NCBI GenBank assembly: GCA_016806715.1
Contig: CP060531.1
Span: forward strand, 977,966-1,041,965
Reading direction: 5' to 3'
From: Thermoplasmatales archaeon
GTDB lineage: Archaea; Thermoplasmatota; Thermoplasmata; Thermoplasmatales; Thermoplasmataceae
Length of the DNA: 64,000 nucleotides
Shown here: positions 45,776-61,197 of the stretch, one piece after another
How the letters are laid out: each line of letters begins with the position of its first letter
Numbering within the stretch: position 1 is the first letter of the stretch
Position numbers and translations under genes: made by a program
The notes under the pieces: generated by a model
Databases searched by the model: none
What the model was told of the DNA's origin: nothing
What the model saw: the letters and a program-made list of their open reading frames with translations, nothing else

Positions 45776-46330
45776 TTAAATACTTCGTCCTTGTGTTGTT
45801 CTTATGCTTTGCATATGGAACGAGAGATTGTTTCTCCTCGTCACTCTTCTGACCGTCTTTATGTTCACATGGATGCCGCTGCTCCTGAGAAGTGTACATA
45901 TCTTTCTGTATCCGTAGGTTGTCCTCTTTCCTGACAGGCCCTTTATGTTAGATTCCACACCTTCAGCTATGTGTGGCTTCCTCGTTCCATTTATTCTATC
46001 TCTCTTCCTGTTGTAAATTGTTGATCTCAGTATATCCAGCGTACTGGAGATCCCTGCAATGGGCATGTCTTCTTTCATTTCACCAACAACCATAGCCATC
46101 TCCTCCTTGTTGTTTTTTTAACGCGGCTATTGCAAGGGGCTGGTCACCGGCAAGCTGCTCGAGATCATCGATTTCCTTCTGGTATTTGTTTTCCTTTGAT
46201 GATTCGCCAAGACCTTTCTCTCCATCTGTGGAACTGTGCAACAGATACACCATGCCTTCTGCACAGTTCTGCTAGGTTTGTTGCAGTGAACTATTCAATT
46301 ACAATCTGTTCTTTCTGCTCAAGGGTAAAT
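45776..46330 (-). pseudogene. IS3-family element remnant (orfA and start of orfB)
   Basis: From right to left on the minus strand: an orfA-like HTH segment (EQKEQIVIE, stop, FTATNLAELCRRHGVS, then QFHRWRE), a frame change, the orfA end (YQKEIDDLEQLAGDQP and LAIAALKK) and the orfB start at 46099 (MAMVVGEMKEDMPIAGISS, then STIYNRKRDR). The HTH_21-type sequence KRTTYGYRKICTLLRSSG and NIKTVRRVTRRNNL follows. The catalytic DDE core is absent and several stops interrupt orfA. It is an inactive IS3 fragment lying 340 bp from the array. Confidence 0.78.
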
Positions 46331-46669
46331 TATCAGACACCCCTACCACCAATTCTCCGGGGAGCATACAGGAGATTTGCATAACCACCTCTTGACTTCC
46401 AGAATATGTCCTTCTTGCAATATATTATCTCTCTTATAACTGTCTATTAAATAAAGGGAACATGTGAATATTCAAGGGTCTCTGCTACAATCTTCTCACA
46501 CTGATGAATATGAAAAAACGCGGGAAGATAGCAGCAGTCATCTAAAACCGGCAGAAAAAATTGGAGAAGAATAGTAAAAAAGGGAAATCCAGGTTTTATA
46601 ATTTTTCGTCACGTTTCAATGAGATAATAGAAGAGGTCTAAAGTCCTTTTGAAACGCCTTTTGAGATAA
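46331..46669. other. Region between IS3 remnant and CRISPR trailer end
   Basis: This 339-bp AT-rich stretch has no gene that I can support. It corresponds to the sequence downstream of the array in its direction of transcription and could hold the crRNA-precursor terminator, but no clear signal stands out. Confidence 0.4.
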
Positions 46670-49600
46670 CTTTCAATCCTATCAAGGTTCTATTTTAACT
46701 TCACTAAGTCAGAAATCTACTCTATAAGAGATTGACTTTCAATCCTATCAAGGTTAGATTCTAATCACACAACACAGGGGGGCAAGTATTAGCAAATACC
46801 CAGCCTTTCAATCCTATCAAGGTTAGATTCTAATATTATTGGTGTCCTCGTATGCCTGCCACATCTGCATCTTTCAATCCTATCAAGGTTAGATTCTAAT
46901 TACAACGGGACGTACGTATTAATTCTTGTTGCATTACTTTCAATCCTATCAAGGTTAGATTCTAATGGGATCGGTGTATAACAACCTCACCTTTGCGATC
47001 TATCTTTCAATCCTATCAAGGTTAGATTCTAATGTTGCTTATGTAGGCTGTTAGGGGGATAAGACCGTTCTTTCAATCCTATCAAGGTTAGATTCTAATC
47101 TGGCCATCCTTGCGGTATACTTCCTTGGATACCTCTTTCAATCCTATCAAGGTTAGATTCTAATGACTGAGAGAAATCCCTGAGACAGAACATATAAAAC
47201 TTTCAATCCTATCAAGGTTAGATTCTAATGGGCTAGCTCTATCCTAGCTTGGCTAAACGTCTGCTCCTTTCAATCCTATCAAGGTTAGATTCTAATACCG
47301 GATGGCCGGTACGTTCCGGTGGACGTATCCCTTTTTCAATCCTATCAAGGTTAGATTCTAATCAGCTTTTACATATCCTGAATTATCAACAGTCTTCTTT
47401 CAATCCTATCAAGGTTAGATTCTAATTGAGTGACGAAGTTTCCACTCAAAAAAGGCATGAAACTTTCAATCCTATCAAGGTTAGATTCTAATGATGATAA
47501 GTTATACCTCTATACTTAATGTCTTTAGCTTTCAATCCTATCAAGGTTAGATTCTAATGTCTCAATAATAGGCTCAAACACCGTGACCCATTACCTTTCA
47601 ATCCTATCAAGGTTAGATTCTAATGAAAAGATGTTTGACAATATCAGGTCTTACAATCTCCTTTCAATCCTATCAAGGTTAGATTCTAATTAGACCTGTG
47701 CGTGGTTTAGGAACGCAAGGCTGGATAAAAATAGAATTCTTTCAATCCTATCAAGGTTAGATTCTAATTGAATAGACCGAGGAACCGGCATATTTGTTAT
47801 TCTGCTTTCAATCCTATCAAGGTCAGATTCTAATTCCCTGGGGTTATATGCATGTGGGATCTTTACATTATCTTTCAATCCTATCAAGGTTAGATTCTAA
47901 TCCAAAAGGTCGAGCAAATCCCGAAAATTATCAACCTCTTTCAATCCTATCAAGGTTAGATTCTAATGAGTGATGTTGCTCCTAGTATGCTGAGCAATTT
48001 CGGCTTTCAATCCTATCAAGGTTAGATTCTAATGAACAGATACAGGGGATAAGACCATGGCATTATTACTTTCAATCCTATCAAGGTTAGATTCTAATTG
48101 GGATCGCCTGTGCCGTAGATTCCGTTAGGTTTTCACTTTCAATCCTATCAAGGTTAGATTCTAATGAGAGGCGAAACAATGACAAAATGCGGGGCAGGAT
48201 ACTTTCAATCCTATCAAGGTTAGATTCTAATGATACCTTATCCCTCATTCCCAACCTCGACCAATATCTTTCAATCCTATCAAGGTTAGATTCTAATACC
48301 GGATGGCCGGTACGTTCCGGTGGACGTATCCCTTTTTCAATCCTATCAAGGTTAGATTCTAATCAAAGCAGGTTAAGGCATACAACTTGCCGCCCATACC
48401 ACTTTCAATCCTATCAAGGTTAGATTCTAATGAGAAGAATCCCCTTACTCTGGATAACAATCGCCTGCTTTCAATCCTATCAAGGTTAGATTCTAATTAT
48501 CCAAGGATTTAGCAATAAACCACGCACAGCTGAACTTTCAATCCTATCAAGGTTAGATTCTAATAAGTTCAAGGATAACCCCGGCAACCGAAGATGATAC
48601 TTTCAATCCTATCAAGGTTAGATTCTAATGATCGTGGCTTACATCGAAACGCCGGACGGGATATTCTTTCAATCCTATCAAGGTTAGATTCTAATATATG
48701 CCGGAAATTCGGCTATGTTGTATTCTTTACACTTTCAATCCTATCAAGGTTAGATTCTAATGACGGAGCAGTATATGAGAATGAACCTGTCACTCCTCTT
48801 TCAATCCTATCAAGGTTAGATTCTAATGACGGAGCAGTATATGAGAATGAACCTGTCACTCCTCTTTCAATCCTATCAAGGTTAGATTCTAATATAGCAA
48901 TAACACTCCTCGCAAATGCGCCAGCAGGCTTTCAATCCTATCAAGGTTAGATTCTAATGAATTGTGTCGTGTTGGAGCTGCTCAAATACGACCTCTTTCA
49001 ATCCTATCAAGGTTAGATTCTAATATAACATAGGCAGGGGCATCTCGAGTCGCCCGTGCACTTTCAATCCTATCAAGGTTAGATTCTAATCCCAGACCAT
49101 GTTATACACCCAGTGTTTTATCCTCCACTTTCAATCCTATCAAGGTTAGATTCTAATTAAGCTCGTCACGTGGTAAGTTTCTACCATGTATGACTTTCAA
49201 TCCTATCAAGGTTAGATTCTAATAAGTATCTTGAGGATCTATACGGAAAGGAAGCCTTCTTTCAATCCTATCAAGGTTAGATTCTAATGATAGCATATCC
49301 CCCATTCCCTAGCTCTACAAACATCTTTCAATCCTATCAAGGTTAGATTCTAATCACAGATTGGGACGGTCTCAGTGTCACCCGCAGTCCTCTTTCAATC
49401 CTATCAAGGTTAGATTCTAATTATGACACTCACACAGGCCAAAACTGCCTTCCGTACTTTCAATCCTATCAAGGTTAGATTCTAATGAGACAGCACAGCA
49501 CACAGGGGGGCAGGTATTAAGCCTTTCAATCCTATCAAGGTTAGATTCTAATACAATGTTCTTTTTTTCCTCTGCGTCGGCCTGTATCCTTTCAATCCTA

Positions 49601-51398
49601 TCAAGGTTAGATTCTAATATCGGGGAGGATGTCTTCAGGCTTGACAAGGATGGCCTTTCAATCCTATCAAGGTTAGATTCTAATCTGGCATAAGATAGGC
49701 GTTCTCCCTATTGTCGCTCGACTTTCAATCCTATCAAGGTTAGATTCTAATACCAAGAAGGGCAAGCCCGAATACACGCAGGTTCCTCTTTCAATCCTAT
49801 CAAGGTTAGATTCTAATGCCAAGGATCACAAGTGCCTATGTTTTATGATACTTCTTTCAATCCTATCAAGGTTAGATTCTAATATAATAGTCCTAGCAGT
49901 TGTATCTTACGTATTAGTCCTTTCAATCCTATCAAGGTTAGATTCTAATATATCCCCATGGTATTTCGCCGTCCTTGCGCATTTGCTTTCAATCCTATCA
50001 AGGTTAGATTCTAATTATCCCCCAAATTAGCATGCCGTGCTTTGCATGGATTACTTTCAATCCTATCAAGGTTAGATTCTAATGCGGACATATTTCGCTT
50101 CGAGTACGGCCGCATACCTCTTTCAATCCTATCAAGGTTAGATTCTAATACAGCGCCTCCTGAAGGACAATACACAATCAGCATCTTTCAATCCTATCAA
50201 GGTTAGATTCTAATAAGTTCCCGCATAAACAAAATTTCTGCCTCATTATACTTTCAATCCTATCAAGGTTAGATTCTAATCGGAAAGAGGTCTCCGATCT
50301 CGTCCACGACTAGATGCTTTCAATCCTATCAAGGTTAGATTCTAATATGCCAAAGCCTTTCATTGAGGAGCACAAGCTCTGGCTTTCAATCCTATCAAGG
50401 TTAGATTCTAATTTTGATAAAGGCAATTAATAATCGTGATGATTTTACTTTCAATCCTATCAAGGTTAGATTCTAATTGTCAATGGTTAAGTGTAATGTA
50501 GTGAAGGATAATGACTTTCAATCCTATCAAGGTTAGATTCTAATCTTAACATCGCCAACTGGAAGATCGACAGCCTCTTCTTTCAATCCTATCAAGGTTA
50601 GATTCTAATCACCTGGATTCTTCGAAACGTAACTGAAGCTATGCGCTTTCAATCCTATCAAGGTTAGATTCTAATGAAGAGTCCGGCGATTCCCGGGGAG
50701 CATTCAACTTCTTTCAATCCTATCAAGGTTAGATTCTAATGTGCACATGAATAGTGGGTCACGTGGATTGCGGTTGCTTTCAATCCTATCAAGGTTAGAT
50801 TCTAATGCATTGTAAAGCAGCACCCTAGTGTCCTCATCGAGCTTTCAATCCTATCAAGGTTAGATTCTAATCGGGGGCGGAAGAGTCGGCACCGGGGCTT
50901 CCTTTTACTTTCAATCCTATCAAGGTTAGATTCTAATTGGGAAGCTGGGAGGTGTGGAAGGAGTCCACATCTGCTTTCAATCCTATCAAGGTTAGATTCT
51001 AATACAAGCCAGTTATTTGCCTCTTCTATGCCACACTGGCTTTCAATCCTATCAAGGTTAGATTCTAATTACAGGAATTTTGTCTCTTCGAGTTCCCTCT
51101 CCGACTTTCAATCCTATCAAGGTTAGATTCTAATACGAACTGATACTTCTTCCTGGAATACGACAGCAAACTTTCAATCCTATCAAGGTTAGATTCTAAT
51201 TAGGATCAGGCTTAGGGGGTCTCTTTGTTTCAGGCCTTTCAATCCTATCAAGGTTAGATTCTAATTCAAACTGGGACTATCGACCTGTATTCAACATCTT
51301 TCTTTCAATCCTATCAAGGTTAGATTCTAATATATGGATACGGACGGGTTGTTGTTGATTGTAATAGACTTTCAATCCTATCAAGGTTAGATTCTAAT
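46670..51398 (-). CRISPR. CRISPR array, 72 repeats and 71 spacers, type I-D
   Basis: I count 72 copies of a 30-bp repeat. On the minus strand it begins ATTAGAATCTAACC and ends GATAGGATTGAAAG, so the 8-nt crRNA handle would be ATTGAAAG. Spacers are 34-39 nt, most often 36, except one of 48 nt at 47691-47738. The copy at 46670-46699 is changed in the ten bases that end it on the plus strand (CTATTTTAAC), marking the old trailer end. The leader is therefore at the right, next to cas2, and transcription runs right to left. One repeat (47805-47834) has a single substitution, and the copies at 47333 and 48334 have T instead of C at the plus-strand first base. Two spacers occur twice. Confidence 0.98.
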
Positions 51399-51818
51399 CC
51401 GTTTCAAAAACATCGTGATTTTAGGTATAAGGTTTCTGTTCCTTTTGCAAAAACAGATCAAACATAGCGTTGCGACTGAGCTATTTAAAGATTTGACTCT
51501 TTTGTTCTAGTTGCTCTCGTTGGTATGGAATCAAATTCGAATTTCTTGGATCACTCTAACATTGTTGGGGTAACTTGAGATCTCCTGCTACCAGATATAT
51601 GATAGAGTCCTGATATTCCTGAGCCTTGAATCCGTATCAACATAATTCTTGAAGAAACATCAGAAAGTTCAGTGTATTACCGTTTATTCATGAGATTGCT
51701 CTGTAGCCCCGTTTAGAAGCTCAAGTTGCAGGATACATGAAAAAACACATAAATCAAGCTAACAAGAAAATCTATTCCCTATAATTTGCGATGTTAAGGT
51801 TTCAAATCGATAAGCGCT
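51399..51818 (-). promoter_or_regulatory. CRISPR leader and spacer to cas2
   Basis: The 420 bp between the last intact repeat and the cas2 stop contain no gene. On the minus strand a TATA box (CTTTAAATAG, 51481-51490) lies about 85-90 bp before the first transcribed repeat, at leader-promoter distance. The first 100 bp are AT-rich with short A and T runs. No leader-anchoring repeat was identified. Confidence 0.7.
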
Positions 51819-52079
51819 TCAAATGATGTTACTGAATTCTTTGGAAAGTCCTAAGGATATTCTCTTAGCAAGGCTCTCATCCCTTAGAGTAAAGATCTGG
51901 ATGGAGTCCTCTTCAGCTTTCATCTTACTTTTCAATTTTGAGATCAATATGTCTAAGTTGGCCTTTGTGATATCACCTACAAATACAGAATTCTGTAGCC
52001 ATTTCAAGTACGGAAGGCAGGTCTTCCGAATGACTTGTACTCTCTTTTCGTTTATATCATACGAAAGAATTACCCACAA
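51819..52079 (-). CDS. cas2: CRISPR-associated endonuclease Cas2
   Basis: The 86-residue adaptor of the Cas1-Cas2 spacer integration complex. It starts WVILSYDINEKRVQVIRK, with the conserved Asp of the first strand (YDI), and has the ferredoxin-like pattern with LKWLQNSVFVGDIT near residue 30. I choose TTG 52079, 4 bp after the cas1 stop with GGTG upstream. An upstream in-frame ATG at 52121 would add 14 residues before the first strand, which does not fit the family. It is the last gene of the operon and faces the array leader. Confidence 0.93.
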   Translation of the reverse strand: MWVILSYDINEKRVQVIRKTCLPYLKWLQNSVFVGDITKANLDILISKLKSKMKAEEDSIQIFTLRDESLAKRISLGLSKEFSNII

Positions 52080-52083
52080 ATTT

Positions 52084-53043
52084 TCACACCCGAGATACGT
52101 AAGCTTTGTATTCCGAGTCACCCAATATATGTCGTTCTAGTTTATATAATTCTAATCTAATGAGTCTTCGATTCGAAACTTTCCTATTGAGCGATGAAAC
52201 ATACGTAGTTTCTTGCATTTTCTTGTCAAACTCCTGAAGCACTTTCCTTTTCCCCCTTTCGTTCATAAATACGCCCCCATCATTCACAAAGTCGCCTTCG
52301 CCCATAATTCCAAGGTTTATCAACTTAAGAATTGTTCTATCACAAAAAATAGGCCTGAAAATTTCCGCTATATCAAGAGCTAAGCTTGATCTTCTTTCCG
52401 ACAGTTCATGCAGATAACTCACCGAAGGAGAGAGATGAGTGCCAAATATTTCGGCGCCTACAACGCCGTATAGAACTGAGTATAGGTAACTCATCATTGA
52501 ATTGCTATAATTTCCTGGCGGGCGCCGAGTTCTAGAATTTATTTTGAATTTGCCTAGTAATTTTGTATCAAGAATTTCTAGATACCTGATGTGGATATTC
52601 CCTTCAATACCCATTAGTTCTTGTATTGAATTGGTAGAATTTATCTGTTTCTCCATTAGCGGGGATTTCTCTGTGCCCAATCTCGCTGTCACCTTGCGCA
52701 TATTTTTTGCCGCTCCGATTACAATTTTTTTCGCAATATACATGCGCTTTCCATAATCTACTTGGTGTTCTACTTGCTTCGCGAGTACAATTCCACTCTG
52801 TAGGTAATTTTCAGGTATAAGACTAGTTATATACCAGCCTCTTTCAGAAAAGAGAATCGCAGGGATATTTTTTTCAGATAATAGGGAAAGAGCTGGCGTA
52901 GTGAATGTTACGTTCCCAAAAATCATTAGTGTGTCCACAGCCTCCAACGGTATCTCAAAATTCTCTGTCTCATTCTTCAAAATCAGCGAATTAGACGATT
53001 TAGAAAGTGTCCCAGACTTTAAAAGATAATAGGTTTCCCCCAT
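52084..53043 (-). CDS. cas1: CRISPR-associated integrase Cas1
   Basis: A 319-residue spacer integrase. The start at ATG 53043 (MGETYYLLKSGTLSKSS) is preceded by GGTAGGT and follows the cas4 stop by 5 bp; the frame extends further upstream but overlaps cas4. Catalytic positions are recognisable: Glu in ELMGIEGNIHIRYLE near residue 130, His in THLSPSVSYLHELSERRSS near 205, and the acidic pair in LALDIAEIFRPIFCDR near 220. The position between cas4 and cas2 is typical. Confidence 0.95.
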   Translation of the reverse strand: MGETYYLLKSGTLSKSSNSLILKNETENFEIPLEAVDTLMIFGNVTFTTPALSLLSEKNIPAILFSERGWYITSLIPENYLQSGIVLAKQVEHQVDYGKRMYIAKKIVIGAAKNMRKVTARLGTEKSPLMEKQINSTNSIQELMGIEGNIHIRYLEILDTKLLGKFKINSRTRRPPGNYSNSMMSYLYSVLYGVVGAEIFGTHLSPSVSYLHELSERRSSLALDIAEIFRPIFCDRTILKLINLGIMGEGDFVNDGGVFMNERGKRKVLQEFDKKMQETTYVSSLNRKVSNRRLIRLELYKLERHILGDSEYKAYVSRV

Positions 53044-53048
53044 TTTAC

Positions 53049-53567
53049 CTACCCCCAGCAGAATTCTACATAGCTGCACCCATGAGAGCAAAAATAGTTG
53101 CGCTTTCCGATTGGTATACCCGATGTCATGAGTGAATCAATTTCTTGGTATTTTATCTTGACCCGTTCTACAAACTCATTCGGATAATCCAATTTTCTAA
53201 TCTTCCTGGCACCTAGTAGATGGATTTCACCGTGATCTATAGAAAATCCTTTGATACTCGCTATCAACATGTAATGTGTCAATTGAAGAGCATCGGCTTC
53301 AATAGTTTTGCGTCCCCTTTTAAATTCGTGGACAATCAGTTTCCCATTTGGAAGAAACTGAACGTAATCTAATTTGTTCCTCCCAATGCTAACTTGCGAA
53401 TACCCAAACTTTCTTTGTATTTCATTTGCATATGCACCTAACTTTACAAAATCAGTACCGTCTGTAATATATATTTCATGTAAAGATAACCAGGCCCTTC
53501 TGAGGCATATGGAAACATAGCTGATATCTGTCCCACGGTAGGACTCTGGCGCTTTCATTTCGTACAC
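53049..53567 (-). CDS. cas4: CRISPR-associated exonuclease Cas4
   Basis: A 172-residue RecB-family nuclease that trims prespacers and helps choose PAM-proximal ends. The iron-sulfur cluster cysteines are visible: one near residue 22 (ICLRRAWLSLHE) and three at the C-terminus (CSHGCSYVEFC). RecB motifs include GRNKLDYVQFLPNGKLIVHEFKRGR, with catalytic Asp and E-x-K. It overlaps the end of cas3' by 13 bp and precedes cas1 by 5 bp, forming the adaptation module cas4-cas1-cas2. Confidence 0.94.
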   Translation of the reverse strand: MYEMKAPESYRGTDISYVSICLRRAWLSLHEIYITDGTDFVKLGAYANEIQRKFGYSQVSIGRNKLDYVQFLPNGKLIVHEFKRGRKTIEADALQLTHYMLIASIKGFSIDHGEIHLLGARKIRKLDYPNEFVERVKIKYQEIDSLMTSGIPIGKRNYFCSHGCSYVEFCWG

Positions 53568-55399
53568 AACACCAAACGTTCCGGACCAGCAGTGGATAAG
53601 ATGCAGTTCCCTAAAGCCTCAAGAACGTCCTTTATTTCGTCCGGTAAGCCGAAATATTGCTTGTAAAATATCTTGAATCTGTCAATTATTTCTTTCCTTG
53701 ATTTGAAGTATATATCTCCATACCTCATTTTCACCCGTGAAGCAAAAGGTAACCCAGTCACGTATACACTGAAATTAAAATCTGGCCGATCTCGGAAATC
53801 CTTAACAATTATCATGCCATCCTTCTCATCTACAATTTCTTTGTTTTTCCTTAACCAGAGTTCTGAGTATTCAGTCATAAACCCACCGGTTTCCATGAAA
53901 TCCTCACTTGTGTCAAGAACTTGAATTTCATTCTGTGACGGGATAAATTTGTAAATAGTCTCTTTGTAATTTTTCCACCACTCTGAAATTTCCTTGATTT
54001 CGACAAGGATGCGAGAACTTCCGAGCGCAAATTGCTTATCGCCAAGAATCATATCTAAATGTTTCGTGCTAAAACAAGCTGCAAGCAAACTTGAATTCAC
54101 ACTTCCTTTCTTCAGGTTCTCGAGTACTGCTTCCTTTGCGTTTGCCGTAAGTTTATCAATAATAAACCACAGATATGTCCCCAGGGATTTCATCCATGGA
54201 GGGCGTTCATATCCGAACCCGAAATCACTTATAAAATCAAACAAATCGTCTATTTTCTCAACCTTTTCTGGAAAATTACTGACGTTCGTCTTTATAGCTA
54301 TATAGAGTTCGCTTACAACTGACGAACCTCTGCCAATTCTTCCGGCCCTTTGGATGAAGCTTTCCAGAGAATAACCAGGTTCTATCAGAAAATTTGTATA
54401 TTCACACGGCGGGTTTATACCCTGTTCAACCACATTTGACCCGATTATAATCCGTTTGCCGATCATGCCGTTCTTAACCATTGCATACGTCTCGTATGAT
54501 GGATCGTGGTATGCAGATATCAACATTATATTGGATTGGGCTATGCGTGGCACGAACTCTTGGTTTGCTTCATGTATATTCCGGATTGAATCAAGTATAA
54601 GGAACCATTTACCTGATTCAAAAATCTTTGGATTACTCCGAATAAAATCTATTGCAGTTCCTTTGTATATGTGTATATTTAGTTTTCCCTGCAACACTTC
54701 TGACCCCTCACTCCTCTGTTGAGTTCTTTCTACCGTTATTTTACAGACCTGATCCTCACCATACATTTCGATAAGAAGTTGATTGAGGTAGTTTGGAAGT
54801 GTTGCAGATGCAAACATCAGCTTAACATCATTTCGAAGCAACAAAGTCGAAGCTAGGATCATCGATGTTTGATCTCTTGAGTAAATGTGAAACTCATCAA
54901 AAATAACTGTGGACAGATTATTCCTCATCAATTCACTGAGCATGTCTTCCCTGCTCTGTTGGCTATAGTGGTTTGTGAGCAAATTATAAAATACGGTAGG
55001 ATTTGTTAAGATGAATTTCTTATTCCTCAGGATAAGTCCGATCGCCTTTCTTAGAGTAAAGTCGTGGAAACCCATACTCTTTTTTTCCCGCATTACACGA
55101 TTTATTGAAGATGCATTCAGTAAAGCAACATCATTTACGCCAGTTTTGTTGAAAGTATGAAGTGTTTCATTTGAGAGAAGATTATTCGGAAAAACGATTA
55201 GAGTGGTTTTACTGCCATTTCCCATCATACTGAACCCTAGTGTCTTTCCAGCGCCGGTTGGCGCTGATAGAACAGCGACTCTCTTCTCAGAATTTTCTGC
55301 GAATCGGACCATTTCAAGCTGGAACTGCCTTATGCCACCAATAGAATCTATGTATGAAGGCGGTATTTCATAAGTTATCACTTTGATATCAGCCCCCAT
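53555..55399 (-). CDS. cas3': Cas3' helicase (type I-D, no HD domain)
   Basis: A 614-residue superfamily 2 helicase that unwinds target DNA after Cascade recruitment. Motif I is VLSAPTGAGKTLGF near residue 44, motif II VIFDEFHIYSRDQ near 168, motif III SATLPNYL near 205 and motif VI QRAGRIGRGSS near 352. No HD nuclease domain is attached at either end. In type I-D that domain is on Cas10d, where one is indeed found here. It overlaps csc1 by 11 bp and cas4 by 13 bp. Confidence 0.93.
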   Translation of the reverse strand: MGADIKVITYEIPPSYIDSIGGIRQFQLEMVRFAENSEKRVAVLSAPTGAGKTLGFSMMGNGSKTTLIVFPNNLLSNETLHTFNKTGVNDVALLNASSINRVMREKKSMGFHDFTLRKAIGLILRNKKFILTNPTVFYNLLTNHYSQQSREDMLSELMRNNLSTVIFDEFHIYSRDQTSMILASTLLLRNDVKLMFASATLPNYLNQLLIEMYGEDQVCKITVERTQQRSEGSEVLQGKLNIHIYKGTAIDFIRSNPKIFESGKWFLILDSIRNIHEANQEFVPRIAQSNIMLISAYHDPSYETYAMVKNGMIGKRIIIGSNVVEQGINPPCEYTNFLIEPGYSLESFIQRAGRIGRGSSVVSELYIAIKTNVSNFPEKVEKIDDLFDFISDFGFGYERPPWMKSLGTYLWFIIDKLTANAKEAVLENLKKGSVNSSLLAACFSTKHLDMILGDKQFALGSSRILVEIKEISEWWKNYKETIYKFIPSQNEIQVLDTSEDFMETGGFMTEYSELWLRKNKEIVDEKDGMIIVKDFRDRPDFNFSVYVTGLPFASRVKMRYGDIYFKSRKEIIDRFKIFYKQYFGLPDEIKDVLEALGNCILSTAGPERLVLCTK

Positions 55400-56054
55400 A
55401 AATCTTTAGGAGGTCTTGAATGGAAAGCATACCTAGAAGGAAGTATTGAAGGACGCTATGACTAGCGTATTCATAATTAAACTTCGGAATACTTTTCCCC
55501 ATTATATTCTGAATAGTGTAGGCGTTAATTACAGCCCTGAATTCACTGCCATGATAATCTTGCAATTTTAGTAAGCCAGTTTTGTTGTTGCCAACTCTCA
55601 AGACTCTTGGTAACTCAAAGTCATCCTCTGTAGTGATTAGATAAGTATAGAAAATGTTTCCTGGTTTAATTGGTTGTTGAAAGTAGAAATTTTTATACAT
55701 TTTCGACCCTTCCCCGAAACCTGGATAAGAACTGGTTCCATTGTAATCGATGCCTTGCATTGTGTTTCTAACCATATTTTTCATGTAAATTGTGTCTCTT
55801 TCACCCCCAAAAGCCATTTTTTCATTTATAGCTACTGTAAACCAAAACGGAAATTCTAAGAGTTCCTCATATGTTGGCTGGAATTTAGTTGGGTAGAAAT
55901 AGTCCATTTTTCCCAATTGGTGAAGTGCGGCATATTTTAGTGCAATATCTCCGATGAAGTCTGACGTTCTCATTCCCCCAGCAGCTGGAATATAGTAGTA
56001 GTTGACCGGGCTGATTGTCTCAATTCTTATTGGTTTTAACCGAAGATTTTTCAT
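55389..56054 (-). CDS. csc1: Cas5-family protein Csc1 (type I-D)
   Basis: A Cas5-like RAMP protein of about 221 residues from the ATG 56054 (MKNLRLKPIRIETISP); the frame is open to 56075, deeper inside csc2. The first strand is followed by SPVNYYYIPAAGG, and the later segment FELPRVLRVGNNKTGLLKL is the Csc1-type glycine-rich loop. It would cap the crRNA 5' handle in the I-D Cascade and help read the PAM. It overlaps csc2 by about 35 bp and cas3' by 11 bp. The assignment to Csc1 rather than another Cas5 rests on gene order and the loop pattern. Confidence 0.85.
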   Translation of the reverse strand: MKNLRLKPIRIETISPVNYYYIPAAGGMRTSDFIGDIALKYAALHQLGKMDYFYPTKFQPTYEELLEFPFWFTVAINEKMAFGGERDTIYMKNMVRNTMQGIDYNGTSSYPGFGEGSKMYKNFYFQQPIKPGNIFYTYLITTEDDFELPRVLRVGNNKTGLLKLQDYHGSEFRAVINAYTIQNIMGKSIPKFNYEYASHSVLQYFLLGMLSIQDLLKIYGG

Positions 56055-57018
56055 TCCAAAACTCACTCCAGTCACTATCCATCTTATTTACAAGTACTAA
56101 GCCCATAGATCGAAGCTGATCCGGAGATTGCCTGAGCTCATTAACTTCGTTGATCAGGGACCTCAGTTCCTCTTTATTTAGGAGGTTCTTTCCATACGCG
56201 TTGTGCATGTCGTCGGCGACCATCTTTTGTGGATCATAGGAACCGGAATTCCATGCTTTCATTATAGTAGAATAGGAACTCACAGAAGTTTCTTGCTTTG
56301 AAAACCCAATTGCTACGATACTGTTCATCATGTTATCGCCAAGGATGGCTGTCCTTGCTCCGTATCTAGTTGTTCCGTTTATAGCCATCAACGCAAGCAA
56401 AAGCATCTCTCTTGAACAATTTTCCATTGAGATATATCGTATGAGTTTTACTCCAGGTCTCACATACGGCACGTTATAGAAAGCGTTGGATTTAGGAGTT
56501 CCATTTTCCTCGTGCAGTATGGTCCCTTCTTCGGAAAGAGAATTATGCAAATATCTGACTGTAATTTTTGCTAGAGACTCATAGCTATATGACCAGTCGT
56601 AGAACATCCTGGAGGCCATACCAGCGGCTTCCGTTCCAGTACCAGTGCTAGAATCTCCGAATATTAAGCTTGAGGGGTTCTTCAGCAATTTTTTCTTTAC
56701 AACCATGTTCCGGCTATATTCTGCAGGTATTATTCCACCCACCTTCCTTAGCTCAGATAACAGGTAAGATCTCTCTGCGCCTCTCCACTTTTGTGCGGGA
56801 ACTACGAGTCTCTCAGAGCCCTGAAAATTCTCGCTTGTAAGCTCGGTTGCTTCGTTATTTCTGTTTATAAAGAAACCAACCGTCTCTGAAACTACACCTA
56901 TTTTTAGAAATATGCCATAGTTCTTCTTTAGGTCAATATCTTCGAGTTTCAACAATAGCTTCTCTTTTTCCAATCTTTCAAAAATTTCCGACATTCTACT
57001 TTTCATCTCCTTTTCCAC
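56020..57018 (-). CDS. csc2: Cas7-family backbone protein Csc2 (type I-D)
   Basis: A 332-residue Cas7-like protein that would coat the crRNA as the Cascade backbone. Csc2-like features are the segment VPAQKWRGAERSYLLSELRKVGGI near residue 92, NPSSLIFGDSSTGTGTEAAG near 133 and NGTTRYGARTAILGDNM near 215, the last resembling the conserved N-Y/R-GAR motif of Csc2. It overlaps cas10d by 23 bp and csc1 by about 35 bp, so the effector genes are translationally coupled. Confidence 0.87.
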   Translation of the reverse strand: MEKEMKSRMSEIFERLEKEKLLLKLEDIDLKKNYGIFLKIGVVSETVGFFINRNNEATELTSENFQGSERLVVPAQKWRGAERSYLLSELRKVGGIIPAEYSRNMVVKKKLLKNPSSLIFGDSSTGTGTEAAGMASRMFYDWSYSYESLAKITVRYLHNSLSEEGTILHEENGTPKSNAFYNVPYVRPGVKLIRYISMENCSREMLLLALMAINGTTRYGARTAILGDNMMNSIVAIGFSKQETSVSSYSTIMKAWNSGSYDPQKMVADDMHNAYGKNLLNKEELRSLINEVNELRQSPDQLRSMGLVLVNKMDSDWSEFWNEKSSVKTNKN

Positions 57019-59710
57019 TTCTCATATATTCAAATTCAAAAGCATTGATTAGGTAAGACTTCATAGAACCAGACGGCACTCTCGAGTCAAAATCCTCTTT
57101 TAGAAGATAGATCAATTTATCTGCAAACTCTGCGATGTCCGTGTCTGTAGGCATCCAAGTCCTGCTCTTGTCTCTCTGCAGAGTCTTTAGAATGACCCCT
57201 TCAACGAATACTTTGTATTCTGACAAGTCTCTATCTTCCCCAGCTGTCAGAGAAACCTTTGCCTTCTCTATGGCTTCTAGGCTGTCTCTTAACATCCAAG
57301 TTCTGTAATTTCCACTCATATTCCACGTTGGTCTTACCATTTTAGCAGCTGATTTTGCCAGTTCTGTGATACTTTTCATCTTCTTTCCCCCATCCTTATC
57401 CCATTCATAAGCCAGTTTTCTTATATTTTCGATCTTCTCAGAAAACTGTTTCCCAAAGCCAGTCATCTTACTGTCTTTTTTATCGAAAACTAGTTTATGA
57501 ACATGATAAAATAATGACATAGGCTGCTGTATATAGTTGCCAATTACATTTGCAGTCTCTTTGAAATCTATCTTGCTTATTGATCCGTTCACGACTACAT
57601 TAAATGTGGTGATCGTATCCAGTACACCCTCTATTTGATTGCACCTGATTCTTTCCCATCCCATGGCTGTACAGATGGAATTCCCTACTTCTATCCTGAC
57701 GGCTTCATACTGGTCTTCAAAGAATGGCGAGTTGGAAAAAGAAAGTCTGATCAGCATTTTTGTTCTCCTGTAAATATTCAAAGCTTGGTACGTGTTCTTC
57801 AAGATTTCTTCTTCTGTCTTAAGATGCTTAACTGAGTAGAAGTATGTGCTATCAAGCCTTACTTCTCTCTTAAAACGATTAATTGCCCGCAACGAAAGCT
57901 TCAGATTGTTTACTTCTGAGAGTTCTTCTTCACGTGAGTACGCTAGATGAGTCATATAGTCAGACATATCAATAAAGGGGATTGCTCCAGGGAATGACAT
58001 AAACATCAAGCCCTCATCTTCGCTCCCGGATCGTGGTACTAAATTACGCCTTAGTGCAAACTCGAATTTTGATATTTGGTCTACTTTTCCGTTTGAAATT
58101 CCTGAAGTCGGGAGCCGATTATTAAACGTCTGAGTATTTATGCCAAAGAGATTCTCGCGGGTAGCCTTTTCAGATGCTGGGTATGCATTAACCATTGACA
58201 TCTTGAACTTGTTGGGGACTCTAGGTAGTACCAGTGAATCGATGTTACGAACTACAATCTTAGAGAGAATATCATTGAAGTCCACGAATTTTTGTTCTTT
58301 GTTTAAATCCGATAAAATATCACTTAGAAGAACATCCCAATCCACTTCTTTGGTTTGAATGGCAAAAGGGATCAATAGCCCAGAGTTCCTTTCTATTTTT
58401 CCCAAGAGACCTTTTAAAATTCCATCTTTATATTTTTCTAATGTTGATTCAAGGAAGGATCTAAGTTCTTTTGCATTTTGAGTATTGAGGTCTGTCTTAA
58501 GCTGTACATATCTTGCCATGAATACTTTCAGCCTTTCCTCAATTCCCTTTTCCTCATCCTGAATTTCATATATTTCCAAACCGTCTCGAAGCGAAGTTCT
58601 CGACTTTTCATTTATCTTCTTGAAATTTAAGGAAAAAGTAATTGTTGCAGTCTTTACTGCATCACTATATGCATACGCTGCATCCCGATTCTCGGGAGTA
58701 ATTTCTATATCTTCCATCCATATGCATTTTTTGAAACCGTCTTCTTTCACATAAGTTATAATTGAATCTTTTGTGTGCGCAACGATCCCTGAAGCTGAGT
58801 TGATCACGCTCCTATCATTGAATGTTAACAAATTTTCCGGTTGTAATATCTTATTTACTATGTCTTCAAAGGCCTTTGTCAAGCCAGTCTGAATAACCGA
58901 ATCGTCCCCGTCAGATACATAGAAAATTGCTCTATTTGTACTCCAGAGATAAAATCCTCCGGAAAGCTCAATCACTTGCAAACACGCTTTTCTAGCTACG
59001 TCTTCGCAAGCATATAGAGAAGTTGCTCCAAATAAAATTTTTTTCAGGAACCTGCCTGGTACAACGGGTTCGCTTCCCCAGTCGATTGAGTCCTCAATAG
59101 ACTTCATATTTCCGGATACTTCTCTATTGAATCTACTGGACAACTGATCCGCGACTCTGGAGAAGTTTGATTCAAAAAACAAGCCCGACCTTTGGTTCTT
59201 ATTTTTGATTATGTTATACGTAGTTCCCAATTCCGTCGAGAAGACAACCTGATACACCTCATCATTTGTAAGATTAAGTTCGTTTCTTAACTCCCTAAAA
59301 TATTTATCCACAAGTTCGAAAAGGGTACTCCTATCTTTCATACTGTAGTCAACGCCGGTTATCTTGTTATAATCATGAAAGAGAAAGCAGAAGATCGATC
59401 TCTTGATAGACAATATTTCTTCCTGTAATTGTCTGTCACTTACTGGCTCTGATATGTACTTATAGTCCAGTACTTTAAGCGCCATCAAGGTACCAGAAAA
59501 AATGTGGGCTAGGTAATCCATGTCCCTGTATTTTTCAAATTTCTTGTTATCATTTCCGCCCTTAGCGCAGCGGTTCCACTCACTTGAAAGCCAAATTTTA
59601 GAGAAAATATTATTTACCGCCCAATCCAAAACTTCCTCAAGGAAGGGTGCCCGAAAATCCATTACACTACGGATTGTTACATGATCCTTGTTGGATGGGG
59701 GTTCTGACAT
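56996..59710 (-). CDS. cas10d: Cas10d/Csc3 large subunit with N-terminal HD nuclease
   Basis: The 904-residue large subunit of the type I-D effector. The N-terminal HD domain has His69 (DYLAHIFSG) and the H112-D113 pair (FCFLFHDYNKITG), consistent with the DNA-cleaving nuclease that in I-D sits here instead of on Cas3. A segment IFYVSDGDDSVIQ at 262-273 resembles the strand-turn-strand carrying GGDD in cyclase Cas10 proteins but lacks the first Gly pair, so cyclase activity is doubtful. The remaining 600 residues are alpha-rich. It starts directly after cas6 (no gap), with GGGAGG inside the cas6 3' end as ribosome-binding site. Confidence 0.9.
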   Translation of the reverse strand: MSEPPSNKDHVTIRSVMDFRAPFLEEVLDWAVNNIFSKIWLSSEWNRCAKGGNDNKKFEKYRDMDYLAHIFSGTLMALKVLDYKYISEPVSDRQLQEEILSIKRSIFCFLFHDYNKITGVDYSMKDRSTLFELVDKYFRELRNELNLTNDEVYQVVFSTELGTTYNIIKNKNQRSGLFFESNFSRVADQLSSRFNREVSGNMKSIEDSIDWGSEPVVPGRFLKKILFGATSLYACEDVARKACLQVIELSGGFYLWSTNRAIFYVSDGDDSVIQTGLTKAFEDIVNKILQPENLLTFNDRSVINSASGIVAHTKDSIITYVKEDGFKKCIWMEDIEITPENRDAAYAYSDAVKTATITFSLNFKKINEKSRTSLRDGLEIYEIQDEEKGIEERLKVFMARYVQLKTDLNTQNAKELRSFLESTLEKYKDGILKGLLGKIERNSGLLIPFAIQTKEVDWDVLLSDILSDLNKEQKFVDFNDILSKIVVRNIDSLVLPRVPNKFKMSMVNAYPASEKATRENLFGINTQTFNNRLPTSGISNGKVDQISKFEFALRRNLVPRSGSEDEGLMFMSFPGAIPFIDMSDYMTHLAYSREEELSEVNNLKLSLRAINRFKREVRLDSTYFYSVKHLKTEEEILKNTYQALNIYRRTKMLIRLSFSNSPFFEDQYEAVRIEVGNSICTAMGWERIRCNQIEGVLDTITTFNVVVNGSISKIDFKETANVIGNYIQQPMSLFYHVHKLVFDKKDSKMTGFGKQFSEKIENIRKLAYEWDKDGGKKMKSITELAKSAAKMVRPTWNMSGNYRTWMLRDSLEAIEKAKVSLTAGEDRDLSEYKVFVEGVILKTLQRDKSRTWMPTDTDIAEFADKLIYLLKEDFDSRVPSGSMKSYLINAFEFEYMRSGKGDEK

Positions 59711-60424
59711 CTATATTGCCTCCCAGCATCCCAGTCCTAGCCCTGTTTTAGAACCAAGCCCTCTGTGATAAATCACTTCCAGAACTCCTGGGTCTCCAGA
59801 AATATTTCCTGTAATATCATATCCTCTCGTCATAGATTCTTTAGCAGGTCCACTGGATATCCTTATCGTCTTTGAATGGGCTTCTGTCACCTTTATGAAA
59901 AGGTCACTCAGATTGCTTTCGGCTATTCCGAACTGATTTTTCAGAGTCCATTTCATTACTTGGTTAAGGTTTTCTTCTATTTCTCCATGTTTCGCAACAA
60001 ACATTTTTTTGTTCTGAAAATTCCTGATCAGTACAGGTGAAAGTGTTTTGAATCCTACGTTCCCCCTACCCCTCAATCTTCCATCAGAATCGGTTACACT
60101 CTTTACAATGTACCGTGCGCTACCTATCCTCAGATAGGGGTCTATTGAAAGGCCTAACCTGAAATAGGATCCCATCCTCTTATCAATTGATCGCAAGATA
60201 AAGAATCCTCTTGAAATATCTAACCCGTTGTTACGGTGGCTTGCGCTCCTCGCTATAATATTGCTAATTGTGTGAATTCCTGGTTGGTTCCATTTATGCA
60301 GTGTTTTAATCTCCTCTTGGTAGAGCTTTAACTTGGAATATACAGATATTGCAAGATAATAGTTATATTCAAATGGAATGGAATTTTGATCGGAGCGTTC
60401 TATAGAAATTATAGAAGTAAGCAT
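59711..60424 (-). CDS. cas6: CRISPR RNA endonuclease Cas6
   Basis: Cuts the precursor within each repeat to leave the 8-nt handle. From the ATG 60424 it has 237 residues: a first ferredoxin-like strand (MLTSIISIERSDQNS, then PFEYNYYLAISVYSKL), and the C-terminal glycine-rich loop GLGSKTGLGLGCWEAI diagnostic of Cas6. A His in NNGLDISRG or HKWNQPGIH may be catalytic, but this cannot be told. A GTG at 60454 would add ten residues, but the TATA box TTAAATA at 60451-60445 lies about 24 bp before 60424 and supports the shorter form. It is the first gene of the operon. Confidence 0.9.
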   Translation of the reverse strand: MLTSIISIERSDQNSIPFEYNYYLAISVYSKLKLYQEEIKTLHKWNQPGIHTISNIIARSASHRNNGLDISRGFFILRSIDKRMGSYFRLGLSIDPYLRIGSARYIVKSVTDSDGRLRGRGNVGFKTLSPVLIRNFQNKKMFVAKHGEIEENLNQVMKWTLKNQFGIAESNLSDLFIKVTEAHSKTIRISSGPAKESMTRGYDITGNISGDPGVLEVIYHRGLGSKTGLGLGCWEAI

Positions 60425-60456
60425 AAGAATATAAACCGGGTGCGTATTTAACACTT
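60425..60456. promoter_or_regulatory. Interlocked divergent promoters of cas operon and csa3
   Basis: Only 32 bp separate the cas6 ATG (60424, minus) from the csa3 GTG (60457, plus). The plus-strand TATA box AATATAAAC (60428-60436) is about 25 bp before csa3. The minus-strand box TTAAATA (60451-60445) is about 24 bp before cas6. Each promoter's TATA-to-start interval contains the other's TATA box, so the two initiation complexes must compete. Confidence 0.75.
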
Positions 60457-61197
60457 GTGACAGACAACGACGAAAAATATTCTTCGCTGAATAGTGAAAA
60501 AAACAACATAACCCTTGTCACTTTCATTGGATTCCAGGAACATCTTGTACTAAATTTCTTAAGAACTTATCTTAGAAATGGGGTGAAAGAAGTTATGTTA
60601 TTTTCGTCTATTCCGCAAAGAAATGCAACGGAAGGGAAATCTACCATTGACCGTGAAATACGTGAAAAAGCGATCAAACTTATCAGAGATTCCTCGGGTG
60701 AAGACGTCACTATTATAGTTAAAGAAATAGAAAATATATGGGACTTTCAAGATTATTATTTCCAGCTCTCGCGAAAAGCTGTAGAGGATGCGATAATAAA
60801 CCTAAGTGCTGGCCCAGCAGTGTTTTCGGCGGCAGGAATGATTTGGGCTTTAGAGCATGGATACAGGGTTAGCTACAGTGTAGAGTACCATGATGATGGA
60901 AAACTGGTGTCTTCGGTTTTCAGCTTACTCGATCTAAGGCCATATATTAATTCAGTCTTTTCTACGGACAATGTTGACAAAATGATCCTTAGTGCTTTGA
61001 AAAAGGGGAAATCCGATACTTTGCAGATAAATAGGTATATAAATGATATAACCGACTACAGGATATCGCTCAGAACCGTAGAAATACACTTAGGGAAGCT
61101 GAACAAATTGGGTATCATAGACATAACTAAAGGAAGAGTAAACAAGTTAACCTTTAGCCAGAAATGGAGCAAAATTGGGACTCCAGATAGAAAATAG
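60457..61197 (+). CDS. csa3: CARF-domain winged-helix regulator (Csa3-like)
   Basis: A 246-residue protein. The N-terminal half is a Rossmann-like CARF domain: ITLVTFIGFQEHLVLNFLR begins it and NLSAGPAVFSAAGMIWAL near residue 117 is the conserved ligand-binding motif region. The C-terminal 80 residues form a winged helix (ILSALKKGKSDTLQINRYI; ISLRTVEIHLGKLNKLGII). Csa3 proteins sense cyclic oligonucleotides or other ligands and control CRISPR adaptation genes, best known from type I-A loci of Sulfolobales. Here it diverges from a type I-D operon across a 32-bp interlocked promoter. T-rich sequence (TTTAATTTTTTG) just after the stop may terminate it. Confidence 0.88.
   Translation: MTDNDEKYSSLNSEKNNITLVTFIGFQEHLVLNFLRTYLRNGVKEVMLFSSIPQRNATEGKSTIDREIREKAIKLIRDSSGEDVTIIVKEIENIWDFQDYYFQLSRKAVEDAIINLSAGPAVFSAAGMIWALEHGYRVSYSVEYHDDGKLVSSVFSLLDLRPYINSVFSTDNVDKMILSALKKGKSDTLQINRYINDITDYRISLRTVEIHLGKLNKLGIIDITKGRVNKLTFSQKWSKIGTPDRK

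Follow-up and report, generated by a model that had tools for sequence, protein, structure and literature searches.

A diverged spacer pair in a type I-D CRISPR array of a Thermoplasmata-like archaeon probably reflects separate acquisitions from homologous sites

We analysed a 64,000-nucleotide stretch of DNA (the window) that carries a cas operon next to a long CRISPR array in a Thermoplasmata-like host genome (Table 1). Cas10d, Csc1, Csc2 and a type I-D Cas3' are encoded together in this one operon (51819-60454), as expected of type I-D, and cas1, cas2 and cas4 adjoin a regular array, as expected of the type I-D adaptation genes. TIGR03158, TIGR03159 and TIGR03157 all score over their cut-offs. 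Judged by its predicted genes, the operon adjoining the array is a complete type I-D system, and the named Cas10d relatives that we found are two Thermoplasmata MAGs. Type I-D adaptation in, for example, Synechocystis uses Cas1-Cas2-Cas4 and a GTN PAM according to PMC10212523, and the same cas1, cas2, cas4, cas3', csc1, csc2, cas10d and cas6 genes are found here; unlike the Synechocystis-type system, this one belongs to an archaeal, Thermoplasmata-like host, has a PAM that is predicted and has an array of 72 repeats. PMC8482600 likewise gives GTN as the type I-D PAM.

Table 1 Features of the CRISPR locus, with positions counted from the first letter of the window
Feature	Position	Strand	Remarks
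CRISPR array	46670..51398	-	72 repeats x 30 nt, with 71 spacers; leader at the high-coordinate side
Terminal repeat	46670..46699	-	4 differences from main repeat; 1 from the repeat of relative G009
Spacer 1 (oldest)	46700..46735	-	last 28 nt match repeat of another CRISPR family
Spacer 2	46766..46804	-	target overlaps that of spacer 43: 23/26 nt, different register
Spacer 24 (older of pair)	48232..48267	-	possible target frame on +: IPYPSFPTSTN
Spacer 40 (newer of pair)	49289..49324	-	16 units nearer leader; possible target frame on +: IAYPPFPSSTN
Spacer 43	49487..49522	-	target overlaps that of spacer 2, shift 7-10 nt
Putative leader region	51399..51500	-	TATA-like CTTTAAATAG at 51490-51481 (-)
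cas2	51819..52121	-	profile matches
cas1	52084..53091	-	profile matches
cas4	53049..53567	-	PADLOC Cas4 7.8e-30; NCBIfam Cas4 score under its cut-off
cas3' helicase, type I-D class	53555..55399	-	profile match Cas3 I-D
cas5/csc1 (type I-D)	55389..56075	-	profile match Cas5d
cas7/csc2 (type I-D)	56020..57018	-	profile match Cas7d
cas10d large subunit	56996..59710	-	Cas10_Id, E 2.6e-78
cas6	59711..60454	-	profile matches
CARF/Csa3-like regulator	60457..61197	+	profile match

The main repeat is CTTTCAATCCTATCAAGGTTAGATTCTAAT on the + strand, where it reads CTTTCAAT...; by convention we take the strand on which it ends ATTGAAAG to be the crRNA strand. The 1.96-Mb genome holds one array with this repeat (71 matches at ≤3 mismatches, all at 46670-51398). 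Because the low end of the array carries the degenerate terminal repeat and its high end faces the cas genes and a putative leader with a TATA-like motif, the array appears to grow toward high coordinates. This direction would place the PAM side of each spacer at its right end. Spacers are usually 34-39 nt long; spacer 16 (47691-47738), at 48 nt, is well above this range. Beside the old end of the array, a transposase-like fragment (HTH_21) and other short frames occupy 45776-46384.

As the initial annotation had described, spacers 24 and 40, both 36 nt long, are identical at 28/36 positions without a gap and at zero offset, so that both of their ends coincide. They differ by 22%, at positions 5, 7, 14, 22, 24, 28, 31 and 34, five of which share one phase of three, again as described. 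The next best non-identical pair of equal length has 18 matches (998 pairs compared). The probability that spacers 24 and 40 resemble each other by chance is practically negligible, for although 1/200 shuffled spacer sets equalled their local score of 20 (+1/-1 scoring), at least 28/36 matches over the full length at zero offset have a binomial expectation of 1.2e-7 over the 998 equal-length pairs, and scores against other species stay lower, with a top score of 14 for the 71 spacers against 450 related-species spacers on both strands and ≤17, mostly from low-complexity sequence, for cross-genome pairs in a pool of 710 spacers.

The array contains true duplicates, and one of the two spacers could in principle be an old in-array copy that has gathered mutations. 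Spacers 10 and 25 are identical (36/36) and lie 15 units apart (47297-47362 and 48298-48363, including the repeat); each precedes a repeat with the same C-to-T variant of its first base, indicating a copied spacer-repeat unit. Spacers 32 (48762-48797) and 33 (48828-48863) are identical neighbours (36/36), a tandem duplicate, and the array holds 69 distinct spacers. The mutated-copy explanation is highly improbable, since these duplicates have no differences at all, only 3 of the 2130 bases in the 71 non-terminal repeats are substituted, and 8/36 changes would require a rate more than 100 times higher in one unit. Spacers 24 and 40, far more alike than expected by chance yet not duplicated in situ, very probably represent two separate acquisitions from homologous sites of diverged relatives, anchored at the PAM side. 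The proposal of homologous targets and separate acquisitions in the initial annotation has good support. Its addition that the site was chosen again "as the target evolved" goes further than the data, because 22% divergence fits two different relatives equally well as one evolving lineage.

PAM-anchored capture predicts that separately acquired spacers from one site coincide at the PAM side. We compared spacers sharing a 7-mer within a pool of 710 spacers from the I-D-type arrays of 15 genomes; I-D-type repeats occur in 21 of the 117 genomes of the order, and the arrays of G066, G071, G078, G041, G046, G050 and G116, with parts of those of G067 and G052, lay outside the pool. The 18 within-genome matches reduced to six diverged same-strand pairs with a score of at least 20 after removal of five identical pairs, two low-complexity pairs (score 15), a pair with a homopolymer indel (G010 6/41), a pair free of substitutions (G012 78/83) and three opposite-strand pairs. 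The PAM-side end coincides exactly in four of the six, namely 24/40 in the window, G035 25/13 (36/38), G035 26/45 (32/38) and G010 22/55 (29/36), and in the latter three the far ends are 1 nt apart; the window pair 2/43 and G062 10/3 do not share this end. G012 78/83 also has only its PAM-side end in common. Pairs 16/28 (14/14, opposite strands) and 6/21 (12/12) of the window fell within the range of shuffled sets and were dropped. A fixed PAM-side end with a loose far end fits the scheme outlined in PMC10212523, in which Cas4 removes the PAM end and a host nuclease trims the other. The "same PAM site" of the initial annotation gains indirect support from the coincident ends of 24/40 and of the sister I-D pairs, although the PAM of 24/40 itself was not seen, as no protospacer was found. 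In two Sulfolobales papers, spacers anchored at the PAM end of one site and varying in length were likewise described for overlapping protospacers, with a ruler mechanism that measures from the PAM (PMC4390879), there in an experiment with one plasmid and here among diverged natural variants in one array, and the CRISPRome study (PMC6858448) similarly built all-against-all spacer graphs, linking related spacers above 70% identity to assemble viral sites, there from population sequencing and here from single arrays. Coincidence of PAM-side ends makes PAM anchoring testable from arrays alone, which is useful where few spacers have known targets, as in type I-D.

The codon-like spacing of the differences, read in the initial annotation as synonymous change in a coding target, is weak for 24/40 taken alone. 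The phase bias has P=0.062 for a named phase and P ~0.18 for any phase. Only + strand frame 2 is open in both spacers, giving the two peptides of Table 1 with 8/11 identical residues, and at least 8/11 identity arises in 28% of random placements of eight changes. The codon pattern of this pair alone does not establish a coding target. For eight diverged pairs pooled, made up of the six same-strand pairs plus G010 11/20, which lies on opposite strands, and G010 9/G104 18, which spans two genomes, the phase bias is significant (P 0.0004), as is the peptide identity (P below 0.0002); as a class, the targets of diverged pairs look like coding DNA. A literature search returned no paper on diverged type I-D spacer pairs whose differences follow codon phase, which is no proof that none exists.

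The cross-genus pair in this pool (IYTDTDSFLLLT, L073 in G010 C4; IYTDTDSFFVVN, L092 in G104 C1) has PAM-side ends that coincide, and 8/11 of its differences share one phase; it was picked afterwards, at a score of 16, from a cross-genome list that also holds chance pairs. IYTDTDSF.. can be read in both spacers, whereas host polymerases mostly have VIYGDTDS, and we take this peptide to resemble the YxDTDS motif of family B DNA polymerases. It is conceivable, but unlikely, that in Thermoplasmata-type I-D systems the PAM frequently coincides with codons that the invader is not free to alter, such as a possible Val before the polymerase-like YTDTDS, and that such sites are captured again across host genera and diverged viruses. 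If so, arrays would record, as paired time series, how viral coding sequence evolves at fixed, constrained positions.

For 24/40, separate acquisition would proceed by the choice of each prespacer at the same conserved PAM, expected to be GTN, followed by processing from the PAM end by Cas4-Cas1-Cas2 and insertion at the leader. The target would be coding DNA read on the + strand of the window, with the crRNA antisense to the message. Against the newer target, crRNA 24 would have mismatches at crRNA positions 3, 6, 9, 13, 15, 23, 30 and 32. Since these eight include seed positions 3, 6 and 9, crRNA 24 probably gave little protection against the newer element, making a second spacer useful. With a GTN PAM and 69 distinct spacers, chance alone would yield about 0.2-1.9 same-site pairs if all derive from one lineage of 10-80 kb, and 0.04-0.35 if they are spread over five lineages. 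If one lineage dominates, neither a hot spot nor priming is thus needed.

Primed adaptation, in which crRNA 24 would have matched the newer element in part and so promoted uptake nearby, is decidedly unlikely as the origin of spacer 40. Pairs that overlap, whether same-strand or opposite-strand, do occur in these arrays (2/43 in the window, G067 10/14, G010 11/20 and G065 83/86), as priming might leave them, but the seed mismatches would make pairing poor, about one same-site pair is already allowed by the chance expectation, and PMC10212523 notes a lack of data on I-D priming. It is very unlikely that the two spacers come from different genes or elements with a common short conserved stretch, such as a mobile domain or a repeat, instead of one orthologous site. 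The known sequence amounts to 36 nt and the searches found no target, which leaves room for such a stretch; against it, the match extends from end to end of both spacers, an outcome that would be rare for a short motif captured at independent PAM offsets. Repeat immunisation against diverged relatives of a virus or plasmid, that is, ordinary CRISPR biology, is the best reading of pair 24/40. On this reading the host encountered related forms of one element on two or more occasions, and the array keeps two ordered snapshots of a virus or plasmid that has not been collected.

We searched for this element in several collections. A wobble pattern covering spacers 24 and 40 and the codon pattern of the pair found no target in viral contigs, and a shortened wobble pattern found none in 84,980 genome species. 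Neither spacer has a target at ≤3 mismatches in the 117 genomes of the order or at ≤2 mismatches in 389 genomes of the phylum. Besides the array itself, the order genomes gave two matches, one out of frame within a different ORF and one in a putative isoleucyl-tRNA synthetase-like gene, and both were rejected. Searches by blastn gave E values of 1-5 only for the array against phages and plasmids, and of 0.9 or worse for spacers 24 and 40 with flanks against phages. Core patterns of pair 2/43, of spacer 55 and of the G035 and G010 spacers found no target, and the provirus markers terminase and polymerase B did not lead to one. The polymerase-like motif gave one match, an 18-residue frame that we regard as chance, and a scan of ten genomes located it in the two CRISPR arrays and nowhere else. 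The want of a target for 24/40 is not unusual, because low match rates are the rule for type I-D, with targets known for 11% of spacers in PMC8482600.

Among all 69 distinct spacers, only spacers 1 and 19 gave matches worth noting in the 117 order genomes, in a search that scored at most two candidate regions per genome, and so may miss matches, and that checked matches with E above 0.001 by their best mismatch count only. Spacer 19 matches a chromosomal gene with 6 mismatches and an adjacent GTA, which we take to be chance. Spacer 1 is the sole convincing match, to the repeat of another CRISPR family, with 1 mismatch in G077 and G087. This repeat is present in 30 copies in an array of G087, 21 in G077, 9 in G067 (3 mismatches) and one solitary copy in G002. 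In that family TAC directly follows the matched segment, that is, GTA on the crRNA strand. The repeat match and the adjacent GTA make spacer 1 look as if it was acquired from another CRISPR array; in the window's own genome it is the only copy of that repeat at ≤3 mismatches.
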